From positions 1,612,001 to 1,676,000 of the forward strand of contig NZ_JNIF01000003.1 in NCBI RefSeq assembly GCF_000702445.1: 64,000 nucleotides of DNA. The letters run 5' to 3'. Below the pieces are notes generated by a model, which ran no database searches, was not told the origin of the DNA, and saw nothing but the letters and a program-made list of their open reading frames with translations. Origin of the DNA: Bryobacter aggregatus MPL3. Lineage in GTDB: Bacteria > Acidobacteriota > Terriglobia > Bryobacterales > Bryobacteraceae. This document shows, in pieces, positions 4,688-8,863 of this stretch (its first letter is position 1; the number at the start of each line of letters is the position of its first letter). The position numbers were made by a program, and so were the translations under genes.

Positions 4688-5425
4688 ATGGCGCAAACAA
4701 ATTTGGAGGCGGGCAACTTGATTGGTGTGAATGCGCAGTATGAATCGGGACGGCTGATCGTCCTGCAACAGTTTCTTCTCGATAATGGCGAACAGATTGG
4801 CCGCCTGCATGGCTATCTGAAGGATGCACTTTTACCTGCTCTCGCACGCGAGGTGGGTGGGGCGCAGATTGTTCTCGAAGCCATTGTGGCGGCACACCAA
4901 CCGCAGGTCCTGTTTTTGCAGGAGTACGAAGATGTCGCCCAGTGGCGCGCCGCTTCGTTGCGTTTGAAGCAGGATGCGGCGCTGCTCGCAGCGCATGCCG
5001 CCTGGGACAAGGCGGGGCCTTATTTGTCGCATGCCACGAGCCTGCTCGCCGCAACGCACTACTCGTCGCCGATTGCGCCGTCCGAGACACCCCGGATTTT
5101 TGAGCTTCGGCTGTACCAGGCCCCGAGCGAGTGGCAGTTCAACGGCTTGCACGAACGCTTTGCCGGGCCTGAGGTGCCGATCTTCCACCGCTGCGGAATC
5201 TTTCCGCTGTTCTATGCGTCGACCATCGCCGGTCCGCAGATGCCGAATCTGACTTACCTGACCCCCTTCGCCAGTTTGGCTGTCCGGGAAGAGGCGTGGG
5301 CGAAGTTCCAGGCCGATCCGGAATGGCATGCCGCGCGGCAGCACTCAATCGACCAGCATGGCTATACGCCGCGGGCCTTGTCGGTGTCGCTGTATAAGAG
5401 CGCACCTTATTCGCCGATTCGCTAA
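4688..5425 (+). CDS. NIPSNAP family protein
   Basis: Protein of 245 residues made of two NIPSNAP-like ferredoxin-fold halves. The second half is clear: IFELRLYQAP near residue 137, then PIFHRCGIFP, PNLTYLTPFASLAVREEAW and FQADPEWHAAR, the usual order of conserved blocks. The first half (MAQTNLEAGNLIGVNAQYES onward) is more diverged. The family has no established enzymatic activity. I chose the ATG at 4688 rather than a start 48 bases upstream, because the upstream extension overlaps the divergent phosphoesterase gene and has no family similarity. Its stop overlaps that of convergent rsmI by four bases. Confidence 0.75.
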   Translation: MAQTNLEAGNLIGVNAQYESGRLIVLQQFLLDNGEQIGRLHGYLKDALLPALAREVGGAQIVLEAIVAAHQPQVLFLQEYEDVAQWRAASLRLKQDAALLAAHAAWDKAGPYLSHATSLLAATHYSSPIAPSETPRIFELRLYQAPSEWQFNGLHERFAGPEVPIFHRCGIFPLFYASTIAGPQMPNLTYLTPFASLAVREEAWAKFQADPEWHAARQHSIDQHGYTPRALSVSLYKSAPYSPIR

Positions 5426-6279
5426 ATTGGCTTTGTTTTGTCTTTGCTCTGCTCGAGGAGCTCATAGGCCTCGCGCTTGTTGAGTCCGGCGCGCTTGGCA
5501 GCGAGCTTGATTGCGTCCATGCGGGATTTGCCCTCAGCCATCAACCGTTCCACGTCTGCTTTCAAATCAGCAGGTTGCGCCGGATTGGCTTCGTTCTGTT
5601 CCGGGTTATGACGCTCCAAAACCAACGTGAACTCGCCCTTGATCGAGGGCCGGGCGGCGAGGGTAGCGTGGATCTCGGCGGCCTTGCCGCGCAGAATCTC
5701 CTCATAGATCTTGGTCAGTTCCCGCGCAGCGGCCAGACGGCGATGGGGGTACATCTTGGCAATCTCTTCGAGAGTTTCGAGAATGCGGTGCGGGGACTCG
5801 AAGAAGATGAGCGTCGCTTCGATCTGTCCCCAGCTTTCCAGTAATTTCTGCCGGGCTGCACTTTTGTGAGGCAAAAAGCCAATGAAGGCGAAGTGATCGG
5901 TGGGGAGCCCGGAAACACTGAGTGCACTCAGCACGGCGCTGGGGCCGGGAATCGGGCTGACGCGCACACCGGCGGCGACGGCGGCTTCGACGAGGCGGAA
6001 ACCCGGGTCGGAAATGAGCGGAGTGCCCGCGTCGGAGACGAGCGCGAGGTCCTCTCCGGCGAGCATGCGGTCAATGAGCTCCTGGCTTCGTTCCTTCTCA
6101 TTGTGCTCGTGCAGGCTGATGAGGGGCCGGTGCGCTCCGGCAGCCGCCATGAGCTTTGCGGTCTGCCGGGTGTCTTCACAGGCGACGGCGGCAACAGATT
6201 GAAGAATTTTCGCGGCCCGGAGGGAAAGATCTTCCAAATTCCCAATTGGAGTCGCAACGATATAAAGTAGTCCGGCCAC
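5422..6279 (-). CDS. rsmI: 16S rRNA (cytidine-1402-2'-O)-methyltransferase
   Basis: RsmI methylates the ribose 2'-OH of C1402 in the decoding centre of 16S rRNA, using SAM. The N-terminus GLLYIVATPIGNLEDLSLRA is diagnostic, followed by VACEDTRQTAKLM, the SDAGTPLISDPGFRLV block and IPGPSAVLSALSVSGLP, all in family order. The C-terminus has a short lysine-rich helix (AAKRAGLNKREAYELLEQ). Length (about 285 residues) fits the family. The conserved region begins only two residues after the GTG at 6279, which I take as the start. A TTG at 6309 is the alternative. Neither has a strong Shine-Dalgarno. Confidence 0.93.
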   Translation of the reverse strand: MAGLLYIVATPIGNLEDLSLRAAKILQSVAAVACEDTRQTAKLMAAAGAHRPLISLHEHNEKERSQELIDRMLAGEDLALVSDAGTPLISDPGFRLVEAAVAAGVRVSPIPGPSAVLSALSVSGLPTDHFAFIGFLPHKSAARQKLLESWGQIEATLIFFESPHRILETLEEIAKMYPHRRLAAARELTKIYEEILRGKAAEIHATLAARPSIKGEFTLVLERHNPEQNEANPAQPADLKADVERLMAEGKSRMDAIKLAAKRAGLNKREAYELLEQSKDKTKPI

Positions 6280-6407
6280 TTGTCGATAGTAGCTGAGCGG
6301 CACTCGCAAAAGTGACAGGGAAATTTTCCCTCTGGCCCCTCACGGTACCTTGAGAAAGCTCAGGCTCAGGGCGTAGCATAGACAGAGGTGGCCCGAAAGG
6401 ACGTGTG

Positions 6408-7619
6408 ATGTCTCATTGGCAGCCTTCCAGCCAACCCAGCCCGACCGAATCCGGCTCCGATTCGCAGAACACCGCACTCATGGAAAATTTCGTACAAACG
6501 CCGACGTACTTCGTTTGGGAGGTCGCCGGCAAGCCTGTCACCATTCATCTCGACTTCGAAGTCGTTGATAAATTGGCGATGGAAGTGATGCGCGGATTTG
6601 GTGCGGTACCGCGCCGTGGGGCTGAGGTCGGTGGCATTCTGATGGGCTCCATCGAGATGGGCGACAAGCTGTTGGTACGGGTGGAGGATTTCATTCCTGT
6701 TCCCTGCGACTACATGCGCGGTCCTTCCTATCTGTTGACGGAGAATGACGAGGCGCGTTTTCGGGCAACCGTCGAGACAGTAAAGCAGTCCTCTGAGAAG
6801 CGTTTGTACGCGGTGGGCTTCTATCGCAGCCACACACGGGATGGATTGGCACTCAGTGACGAAGACTTGCAGATTTTTGAGAAGTACTTCGCCGACCCGA
6901 CCAATGTGATTCTGCTAATTCGTCCGTTTGCGACCAAGCCCAGCGTCGGAGGGTTCTTTTTTGAGGAGAATGGCGGATTCCACCGGGAGTCGTCGTACCT
7001 CGAGTTTCCATTCAAGCGGCGCGACCTGGGCGGTGGCGCTTCGCCGTCGATGCGGACGGCTCCGGCAGAAGAACGGACAGAACCGCGCGGGCCGGAATCG
7101 GCGGAACAGACACCCGGCGAAGGCTTGTCCAATCCCGGCAATCCGGATGATCTGCGCGATTGGATTCAGAATCGCAGATCCCAGGCGGACAGTTCTGATC
7201 GCGAGGCGACCACTTCGGCCCGTTTCCGCAGCAAGTCCGTGTGGATTCCGCTTTCCTTCGTATTTCTGTTGCTCGGCGTGATCATTGGCTTCCAGGCCGC
7301 ACTGGTGCTGAACCGGGGAGATGCCCAGAAGATTGCGGCGCAGAGCTTGAGCCTGTCGCTGACGGCGCAGTTGGAATCCGGCAAGCTCATTGTGCGCTGG
7401 GATCGCAATTCTGCAGCAGTCCTCAATGCGAAGAGCGGCACGCTGCAGATTCTGGATGGCAGCTTTACCAAGACCGTGAATCTCGATGGCCGCCAATTGC
7501 AGAACGGTAGCGTCATCTACATGACGGCGGACAGCAAGGTGAGCTTCCGTCTGGAAGTGGTTACGAACAACAAAGGAACGATCAGCGAGACGGTCGAATA
7601 CCTTCCGCCGTCCCGCTAG
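6408..7619 (+). CDS. membrane protein with degenerate JAMM/MPN domain
   Basis: 403 residues, function not known. Residues about 30-200 look like an MPN (Mov34/JAB) domain: Glu73 in a GAEVGGILMG stretch matches the JAMM glutamate, and residues 140-153 read R-S-H, then seven residues, S-x-x-D. In active JAMM proteases this block is H-x-H-x7-S-x-x-D, so the first zinc-ligand His is replaced by Arg140. A low-complexity Pro/Glu-rich linker leads to one membrane segment (about 277-301) and a small C-terminal beta domain of about 95 residues with alternating strands. The topology suggests a cytoplasmic MPN domain and an extracytoplasmic C-terminus. The start is ATG 6408, with AAGGA upstream; a GTG immediately precedes it. 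Confidence 0.7.
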   Translation: MSHWQPSSQPSPTESGSDSQNTALMENFVQTPTYFVWEVAGKPVTIHLDFEVVDKLAMEVMRGFGAVPRRGAEVGGILMGSIEMGDKLLVRVEDFIPVPCDYMRGPSYLLTENDEARFRATVETVKQSSEKRLYAVGFYRSHTRDGLALSDEDLQIFEKYFADPTNVILLIRPFATKPSVGGFFFEENGGFHRESSYLEFPFKRRDLGGGASPSMRTAPAEERTEPRGPESAEQTPGEGLSNPGNPDDLRDWIQNRRSQADSSDREATTSARFRSKSVWIPLSFVFLLLGVIIGFQAALVLNRGDAQKIAAQSLSLSLTAQLESGKLIVRWDRNSAAVLNAKSGTLQILDGSFTKTVNLDGRQLQNGSVIYMTADSKVSFRLEVVTNNKGTISETVEYLPPSR

Positions 7620-7631
7620 ACCGCGCGGCGC

Positions 7632-8684
7632 CTAAGTGTCCTCTTCTTCCTCATCGCCGGGGTGAATCCGAATCAGGATCCGCTCGCCATTCTTCAGATC
7701 CATTTCCACCAGTGCGCCGGACGGGATTTTTCCGTCGTTGATCACGGCCGCCAGGGGCTGGAGGATCAAGCGTTGGATGGTGCGCTTCAACTCGCGGGCT
7801 CCGTACTGGACGCTGGTTCCCTTTTCAATGAGAAAGCGCTTCAGCCGGCCGGTGAGATCGAGCTCGAACGCTTCAGAGCCCAGCCGGGTGTCGATGTGGG
7901 TCTGGATATTTTCAATTTGCAGTTCGAGGATTCGGGAAATCGCTTTGTCGTCGAGCGGGGCATAGGTGATGGTGGAATCGATGCGATTCAGGAACTCGGG
8001 CGAGAATTTCTTCTTGGCCGCAGTGAGACCAATGGCTTCGAGACGCTGATTGCTTGCAACGGTGTCGTTGACCGGAGCAATCGCCGCAAAACCCATGGTG
8101 GGCTTGAGCTCCTTCTGCATGCTCTCCGCACCCAGGTTACTCGTAAGAAAGATCATCGTGCGCTCAAGACTCACGAGATTGTTGTCGCCCAAGCGCAGCA
8201 ATCCCCGGTCGAGGATGCCGAGCAGGACACGCATCATCGAAGGGGCTGCCTTTTCGATCTCATCAAAGAGAAGGATCGACAGGGCCGAGCGATCGCTCGC
8301 CACCGAGTTGATCCGGGCTTGCGATAGCAACGGTTGGGTCTCGCGGTGGCCCAGGTAACCGGGCGGAGCCCCCACCAGCTTTGCCACTTCGTGATCCATC
8401 TGGTATTCCCCGCAGTCGATACGAAGGATGTTGCGAACGTTGCCATGCAACGCTTCCGCAAGTGCCTCGACGGTGCGAGTTTTGCCCGTGCCCGTAGGGC
8501 CGAGCAACAGAAAAACTCCAGCGGGACGGCCTTCTGGCGATAAGCCTGCCTCAAACATCTGAACAAACGGCAGCACATGTCTCGCCACGCCCGGTTGCCC
8601 GATGAGCAACCGATCGAACTCCATCGTGATCCCACTATCGAAGTTATTTCTACGGTTCTGATTTCCTGATCCGAAAGTAGCCAT
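7632..8684 (-). CDS. stand-alone ClpB/ClpA-type AAA+ ATPase (D2-like)
   Basis: About 350 residues, only the second ATPase module of a Clp/Hsp100 protein. Walker A is GPTGTGKT at residues 62-69, Walker B is ILLFDEIEKA, followed by LTSNLGAESMQKEL (sensor-1 region) and EFLNRIDSTITYAPL, all typical of the AAA_2 domain. A ClpB D2-small-like C-terminal domain ends with YGARELKRTIQRLILQPLA. It lacks the N-domain, D1 module and coiled-coil propeller. ClpB-like DNA is absent nearby, so it probably acts alone or with an unlinked partner. The start is chosen at ATG 8684; an upstream extension would be Arg/Cys-rich and unlike the family. It is convergent with the MPN gene. Confidence 0.82.
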   Translation of the reverse strand: MATFGSGNQNRRNNFDSGITMEFDRLLIGQPGVARHVLPFVQMFEAGLSPEGRPAGVFLLLGPTGTGKTRTVEALAEALHGNVRNILRIDCGEYQMDHEVAKLVGAPPGYLGHRETQPLLSQARINSVASDRSALSILLFDEIEKAAPSMMRVLLGILDRGLLRLGDNNLVSLERTMIFLTSNLGAESMQKELKPTMGFAAIAPVNDTVASNQRLEAIGLTAAKKKFSPEFLNRIDSTITYAPLDDKAISRILELQIENIQTHIDTRLGSEAFELDLTGRLKRFLIEKGTSVQYGARELKRTIQRLILQPLAAVINDGKIPSGALVEMDLKNGERILIRIHPGDEEEEDT

Positions 8685-8863
8685 AAAGAATCGCTTCCGA
8701 GAACAGCGTAGCTGGAGGCGGTAGCGGCTTTGCGGCGATTCGGGCAGGCACACGTCAACTGCTGGACGCGTAACCTACTTCAAATCAGAAGTTTAGGATG
8801 GTAAAGGAAATATTTGGAGGGGGTCGCAAAAATCTGTGACCGTCTTTGCGGGCCAAGGTGCAA

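Follow-up and report, generated by a model that had tools for sequence, protein, structure and literature searches.

A membrane-anchored pseudo-JAMM family of Bryobacteraceae with a constant arginine at a zinc-ligand position: probable conversion of a protease fold into a membrane-spanning binding protein

RESULTS

The locus and the domain architecture of its product

We analysed a window of 64,000 nucleotides of Bryobacter aggregatus MPL3 (contig NZ_JNIF01000003.1, positions 1,612,001 to 1,676,000), which contains a gene for an MPN-domain protein. Its parts and its divergent neighbour, in positions of the window, are as follows; row counts refer to the alignments described below.

5422-6309, minus strand: rsmI-like methylase gene (TP_methylase by Pfam), divergent neighbour
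6398-6401, plus strand: possible ribosome-binding site AGGA, read by eye, 6 nt 5' of the ATG
6408-7619, plus strand: whole gene, a 403-aa ORF with ATG start, encoding MPN (pseudo-JAMM) domain, linker, transmembrane (TM) segment and FN3-like domain
6507-7031, plus strand: MPN/JAMM-fold domain, residues 34-208 (AlphaFold pLDDT mostly >90; structural matches)
6624-6626, plus strand: Glu73, position of the JAMM general base (78/78 rows; 121/127 Arg rows in the wider set)
6825-6827, plus strand: Arg140, replacing the first zinc-ligand His (78/78 rows; outside the retrieval patterns)
6831-6833, plus strand: His142, second zinc-ligand position (H in 63/78 rows; N 13, Q 1, T 1)
6834-6839, plus strand: Thr143-Arg144 (78/78 rows; usual also in HxH sister paralogues)
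6855-6857, plus strand: Ser150, position of the catalytic Ser (S in 17/78 rows only)
6864-6866, plus strand: Asp153, third zinc-ligand position (78/78 rows)
7032-7232, plus strand: linker, low-confidence and fast evolving (pLDDT block means 41-67; highest dN of the three parts)
7242-7310, plus strand: TM segment, about residues 279-301 (model helix 279-312), predicted N-in/C-out (AlphaFold model; row counts)
7344-7610, plus strand: outer FN3-like beta domain, residues about 313-401 (pLDDT 93.6; FN3 structural matches)

The six neighbouring ORFs were assigned by Pfam to TP_methylase, a ClpB-D2-type AAA, NIPSNAP, Phosphoesterase, short-chain dehydrogenase and IF-1. The AAA+ gene (7632-8753, minus strand) is convergent with the pseudo-JAMM gene and encodes a stand-alone protein with ClpB D2-type AAA_2 and D2-small domains; a neighbour like it was seen in 14 of the clustered loci.

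Sequence profiles recognise the MPN domain only faintly. Pfam JAB (PF01398) scored 22.4 bits on the window protein, just under its gathering cut-off of 22.5, Prok-JAB scored 14.5 bits against a cut-off of 25, and a phmmer search of PDB sequences reached an archaeal Rpn11 at E = 0.03, pairing VGFYRSH with VGWYHSH. The AlphaFold model, for which the 78 aligned rows served as input, is confident over most of residues 34-208 and 313-400 and places between these two parts a low-confidence linker followed by one long helix that opens with the TM segment. Its MPN domain matches the Rpn11 homologue CsRpn11 (6fno_B) with a Z of 14.1 and an rmsd of 3.0 Å over 144 residues, and Cap3 (9ild) with a Z of 13.6, while Foldseek led from the window model to a human 26S proteasome chain (E 4.6e-7) and to the Rpn11-Rpn8 heterodimer (4owp_B, E 7.4e-7). 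Since the model matches known MPN structures where the profiles remain faint, it is the predicted structure that settles the fold and bears out the MPN domain proposed for this gene in the initial annotation.

Arg140 is constant, the catalytic positions are not

According to a section of a review (PMC9313428), JAMM enzymes are defined by the motif ExnHxHx7Sx2D; in CsRpn11 the residues are E24, H83, H85, S93 and D96, as listed in part of the text describing it (PMC6043591). The window protein has E73, R140, H142, S150 and D153, and the spacing of 140/142/150/153 is identical to that of H83/H85/S93/D96. It thus combines the MPN fold, the catalytic Glu and the zinc-ligand Asp with RxH instead of HxH.

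Of 107 relatives we took the best 80, dropped three that were short or partial and aligned the other 77 with the window protein. In 77 of these 78 rows the peptide pattern P[RK]RG[AVI]EVGG is found, which was used for retrieval and includes Glu73, so that the constancy of residues 68-76 is partly built in. Outside the retrieval patterns lie Arg140, Thr143, Arg144 and Asp153, and all four are invariant over the 78 rows (as is the retrieval-biased Glu73). The Arg in place of the first zinc-ligand His, noted initially in a single protein with a survey of homologues as the proposed check, is therefore found in every row of that survey; judged from the aligned sequences, it is a constant signature of an orthologous group and not a one-protein oddity.

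The S-x-x-D and the second His had been described as a perfect fit to the JAMM pattern. Both are indeed present at JAMM spacing in the window protein, but this part of the description does not extend to the family, where His142 and Ser150 are kept in 63 and 17 of the 78 rows and rank only 50th and 133rd in conservation among 175 positions. Because these two residues vary and Arg140, Thr143, Arg144 and Asp153 never do, catalysis is apparently not what selection keeps. A metal site restored by other residues, the alternative against which the initial annotation had set its reading, was not found either: a search for conserved His and Cys in the aligned part gave only His47 (37/78 rows), His192 (8/78) and Cys100 (73/78), with no replacement His, and on these sequences we reject such a site.

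Several searches together yielded 208 distinct MPN segments, a wider set in which position 140 is Arg in 127, His in 53, one of Val, Ile, Leu, Ala, Cys or Gln in 25 and a gap in 3. Asp153 is present in 127/127 Arg rows and Glu73 in 121 (5 gaps, 1 Asp), Ser150 in 23/127. The 53 rows with His at 140 have the second His in 51 and Ser150 in 47; 20 of them come from loci L140-L159 (PF14464 matches, mostly short cytoplasmic JABs) and were excluded from later architecture and tree counts.

A transmembrane segment and a predicted outer FN3-like domain follow the MPN domain

The MPN domain is followed by a TM segment in 120/127 Arg rows, and by a TM segment and then an FN3-like domain in 116/127 Arg rows, 23/33 His rows and 18/25 of the others, which supports the membrane anchor and the outer beta domain that had been suggested initially. 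The model of the outer domain was obtained by folding it alone, and the matches listed for it (Z 9.4-10.9) are mostly FN3 domains. Because the best Foldseek E is 1.0e-3 and Pfam FN3 gave no match on the window protein at E <= 10, the assignment to FN3 is one of fold only and not of sequence family. A profile of this FN3-like domain matched in 33 of the 37 Bryobacteraceae genomes searched and in none of the 24 genomes outside the family.

A TonB_C domain was found at the C end of 8/10 long Arg-type proteins, which had been chosen because most C-terminal ends looked TonB-like, and also in one further Arg-type relative (L029). TonB_C works in the periplasm, which supports an N-in/C-out topology. 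Of 173 TM-bearing rows, 121 have more positive charge on the N side of the TM segment, 26 have equal charge on both sides and 26 show the opposite. We infer that the MPN domain is cytoplasmic and the C-terminal domain lies outside, a topology with which the charge is not in line, being not N-positive, in 52/173 rows.

Sister paralogues with a complete JAMM motif

Many Bryobacteraceae have further members of the family, including HxH membrane paralogues. For the tree the rows were thinned from 178 to 115 (Arg rows at 60% identity, others at 90%). A sister group of 57 rows (SH-aLRT 100) includes proteins with GWYHSHTR...S..D, in which the JAMM motif is complete and continues with HTR as in the window protein, and on one of these (L163) Pfam JAB PF01398 scores 35.3 bits. 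The same group also holds replacements of the first His by Val, Ile, Leu, Ala and Cys as well as four Arg rows. The Arg rows L184, L173, L218 and L002 fell inside the sister group, and Arg would accordingly have arisen more than once. The remaining 50 Arg rows as one clade were not rejected (p-AU 0.51), in a test where L184, L173 and L218 had been removed from the clade beforehand and on a tree without the six long-branch rows L227, L249, L117, L238, L245 and L002.

How often was the first His exchanged? Quick trees gave 5-6 changes of the label Arg. For the other 56 rows parsimony counted 10 His/other-residue changes, but many branches of the quick tree used are weak, and its starred branches force only 1 to 3 changes per label. 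Since the sister group mixes intact and His-less members, near relatives do possess a complete motif, and loss of the first His appears to have happened more than once among the sister paralogues, the exact number and the root being uncertain. With far JAMMs as outgroup, on very long branches, the root fell among Arg rows, which, taken literally, would mean that His was regained; the direction from His to Arg suggested here comes from the known motif, and the tree is no proof of it. The initial doubt about peptidase activity gains support from these comparisons, with Arg at the first ligand throughout the 78 rows, a drifting Ser and a sister group that keeps the full motif.

By eye, the sister paralogues L165, L168, L233, L236 and L239 (three HxH, one HxR, one CxH) have an extra C-terminal stretch with NGW and IEW-like motifs, in which Pfam found no match.

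Selection, distribution and inheritance

Against the nearest orthologue (L037), the MPN domain has a dN of 0.084 at a dS of 2.1, which is near saturation, and the linker a dN of 0.43; in all six comparisons the linker had a higher dN than either of the other two parts. By these rates, both the MPN part and the FN3-like part are under strong purifying selection.

The wider MPN family was matched in 60/61 genomes of the family Bryobacteraceae (Acidobacteriota) and 2/40 others, and in 10/297 genomes of the phylum, 3 of these 10 being from Bryobacteraceae. An Arg-type member was among the fetched loci of 49/61 Bryobacteraceae genomes, as not every family match is an orthologue. In 69 of 79 usable loci (one of 80 had no room) an rsmI-like gene is divergent from the orthologue, with a median gap of 71 nt, and in 10 the arrangement is otherwise. 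Because this divergent pairing is kept, the gene is likely to be old and vertically inherited in Bryobacteraceae. A plasmid location was rejected: tblastn against 72,556 plasmid records found no match, and the contig of the window is 4.26 Mb long.

One orthologue (L020:1483-2799, minus strand, genome G016) is cut in two by a stop codon, either a sequencing error or a real inactivation. A record titled as a Bordetella parapertussis MAG (L072) contains the Bryobacteraceae gene and is probably a mislabelled bin.

The family in the window genome, and the search for a defence system

A family search of the window genome at E <= 1 returned only the window gene and a second gene, itself Arg-type. The latter (L002:970-2052, minus strand, the same as L134:6928-8004, minus strand) encodes a second membrane pseudo-MPN protein with R-S-R replacing H-x-H; seven other members of the genus that were searched gave two family matches each.

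A role in defence is not supported. NCBIfam 6A-MBL cap2_3 scored 20.6 bits on the window protein against a cut-off of 320, about 300 bits under it, and PADLOC gave weak generic JAB matches alone (best E 3.1e-4). With the anti-phage JAB of Cap3 / 6A-MBL cap2_3 the window protein has in common the MPN fold and this weak NCBIfam match to the JAB part, but Cap3 systems differ in their setting, as Pfam found no E1, E2 or CD-NTase in the six ORFs scanned around the window gene.

DISCUSSION

Excerpts of one source (PMC4579573) define MPN-minus proteins as having the MPN fold without an essential zinc-coordinating residue. With Arg140 in the first zinc-ligand place of an MPN fold, the window protein falls within this definition. 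It has the fold and the spacing of the last four motif positions in common with the Caldiarchaeum Rpn11 homologue (6fno, 6fnn) and with eukaryotic Rpn11, but differs from them by the Arg for the first His, by the added TM segment and FN3-like domain and by a locus without a ubiquitin operon. With Rpn8, CSN6, eIF3f and KIAA0157/Abraxas, which are MPN-minus proteins, it is alike by class definition, an essential zinc ligand being missing; unlike these eukaryotic proteins it is bacterial and membrane anchored, keeps other motif positions and has one constant substitution. The missing catalytic motif is in itself no proof of inactivity, because eIF3f, counted as MPN-minus in part of a review (PMC9313428), has been reported as a deubiquitinase in another paper (PMC2990700). 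For the window protein, the sequence comparisons nevertheless suggest that both zinc and peptidase activity are absent. Since His142 is present in most members, some weak metal binding by His142 and Asp153 may persist.

The reading we favour, and consider probable, is that of a membrane-tethered pseudo-JAMM (MPN-minus) protein whose old cleft has become a binding pocket coupled through the TM segment to a periplasmic FN3-like domain. The MPN domain would face the cytoplasm and no longer hold a catalytic zinc, and the former active-site cleft, with its conserved Glu73, Arg140, Thr143 and Asp153, would serve to bind some ligand or partner. Binding in the cleft would be coupled through the single TM helix to the periplasmic FN3-like domain, to which TonB_C is added in some relatives, and helix and FN3-like domain would either pass on a signal or hold the protein to a partner in the envelope. 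The protein might thus work as a trans-envelope adaptor or sensor, in keeping with the binding or signalling role that the initial annotation had suggested and that we, too, consider plausible. We speculate that an Arg at the zinc place amid Glu and Asp would suit a salt-bridged, metal-free pocket able to hold a carboxylate.

Could the window protein instead be the silent half of an active protease? As the chief rival, which we regard as unlikely, it would be a regulatory MPN-minus half that dimerises with an active JAMM, either an HxH membrane paralogue or a small cytoplasmic JAB, as KIAA0157 does for BRCC36. Such MPN-plus/MPN-minus pairs are well described, according to the excerpts of PMC4579573, and candidate partners exist: HxH membrane paralogues occur in many Bryobacteraceae, of 53 genomes with an Arg-type row, 18 yielded an HxH row as well (in fetched loci, small JABs excluded), and the window genome encodes a canonical JAB of 146 aa. 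The latter, however, is located elsewhere on the contig, and what weakens the proposal is that the search at E <= 1 found no HxH membrane paralogue in the window genome and that 35/53 Arg-type genomes are without an HxH row, a count from fetched loci only and therefore an upper bound.

A more specific proposal, to which we give a slim chance, makes the Arg a built-in substitute for zinc, with its guanidinium placed between Glu73 and Asp153. A deconjugating enzyme would thereby have become a reader that grips a carboxylate, for example the free C-terminus of a Ubl or peptide of the kind formerly cleaved in the JAMM cleft, and reports across the inner membrane to the periplasmic FN3-like arm, TonB-type in some relatives. 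If true, a deubiquitinase-like ancestor would have given rise to a trans-envelope signalling family, with the first His lost repeatedly in the sister paralogues.

It is very unlikely, to our mind, that the protein is a metallohydrolase with a rearranged site, in which His142, Asp153 and perhaps Glu73 or a water would serve as ligands. The window protein does have Glu73, His142, Ser150 and Asp153, but across the 78 rows Asn, Gln or Thr stands in for His142 in 15 and Ser150 is replaced in 61, and there is no other well-conserved His. A decaying relic without function, as the broken catalytic motif might suggest, is hardly credible given the strength of purifying selection on the MPN and FN3-like domains, the four residues outside the retrieval patterns (Arg140, Thr143, Arg144, Asp153) that are unchanged over 78 rows, and the rsmI-like neighbour retained in 69/79 loci.

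If the tethered binding protein is the right reading, a JAMM protease fold was probably converted long ago, in the window family, into a binding protein that spans the membrane. Eukaryotic complexes are the best-known setting of MPN-minus proteins; here such proteins occur in a bacterial family in which paralogues with active and dead motifs coexist. The nearest sister group, the HxH membrane paralogues of Bryobacteraceae (for example L163, L161 and L208), has in common with the window protein the HTR continuation and the architecture (the His-140 rows counted above include a few from outside Bryobacteraceae), but differs in retaining the complete JAMM motif. With a His-to-Arg swap that is exceptionless among close relatives, an old zinc-ligand Asp that is kept and a catalytic Ser that drifts, the family provides a natural series in which the path from JAMM protease to binding protein can be studied. 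Our literature search, part of which was swamped by ecology papers, found by title no work on an Arg-type membrane MPN family.

The family also indicates that bacterial JAMM-like proteins can span the envelope apart from any local Ubl operon. Indeed, no Ubl, E1 or E2 gene is among the six ORFs scanned around the window gene, and a search for Ubl genes with the YukD profile (PF08817) alone gave no match in the window genome and matches in 4/61 genomes, 2 of them in Bryobacteraceae and none in the genus of the window. Three distant acidobacterial relatives (L118, L119 and L121, in loci L129, L130 and L131) resemble the window protein in having an MPN domain followed by a TM segment and in belonging to the same phylum, but differ in their intact HxH..S..D motif, in Ubl-type genes within about 2 kb and in giving no match to the FN3-like profile. 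The JAMM of L129 adjoins a YukD-type Ubl, a UQ_con E2 with zinc ribbons and a VWA/Prok-RING protein, that of L130 a YukD-type Ubl and a ThiF-type E1, and in L131 about 2 kb separate the JAMM from a ThiF-type E1. Gene neighbourhoods that join JAB, E1, E2 and Ubl in this manner have been on record since 2006 (PMC1779556).

Two arrangements with YukD-type Ubl genes were seen in passing. Four scanned ORFs of L129 (5038-9568, minus strand) form a run of Ubl, E2, membrane-anchored canonical JAMM and VWA/Prok-RING genes. In another genome, a 1179-aa frame with two JAB domains (G068:C10:617536-618750) is located ~1.2 kb downstream of a YukD-type Ubl match.
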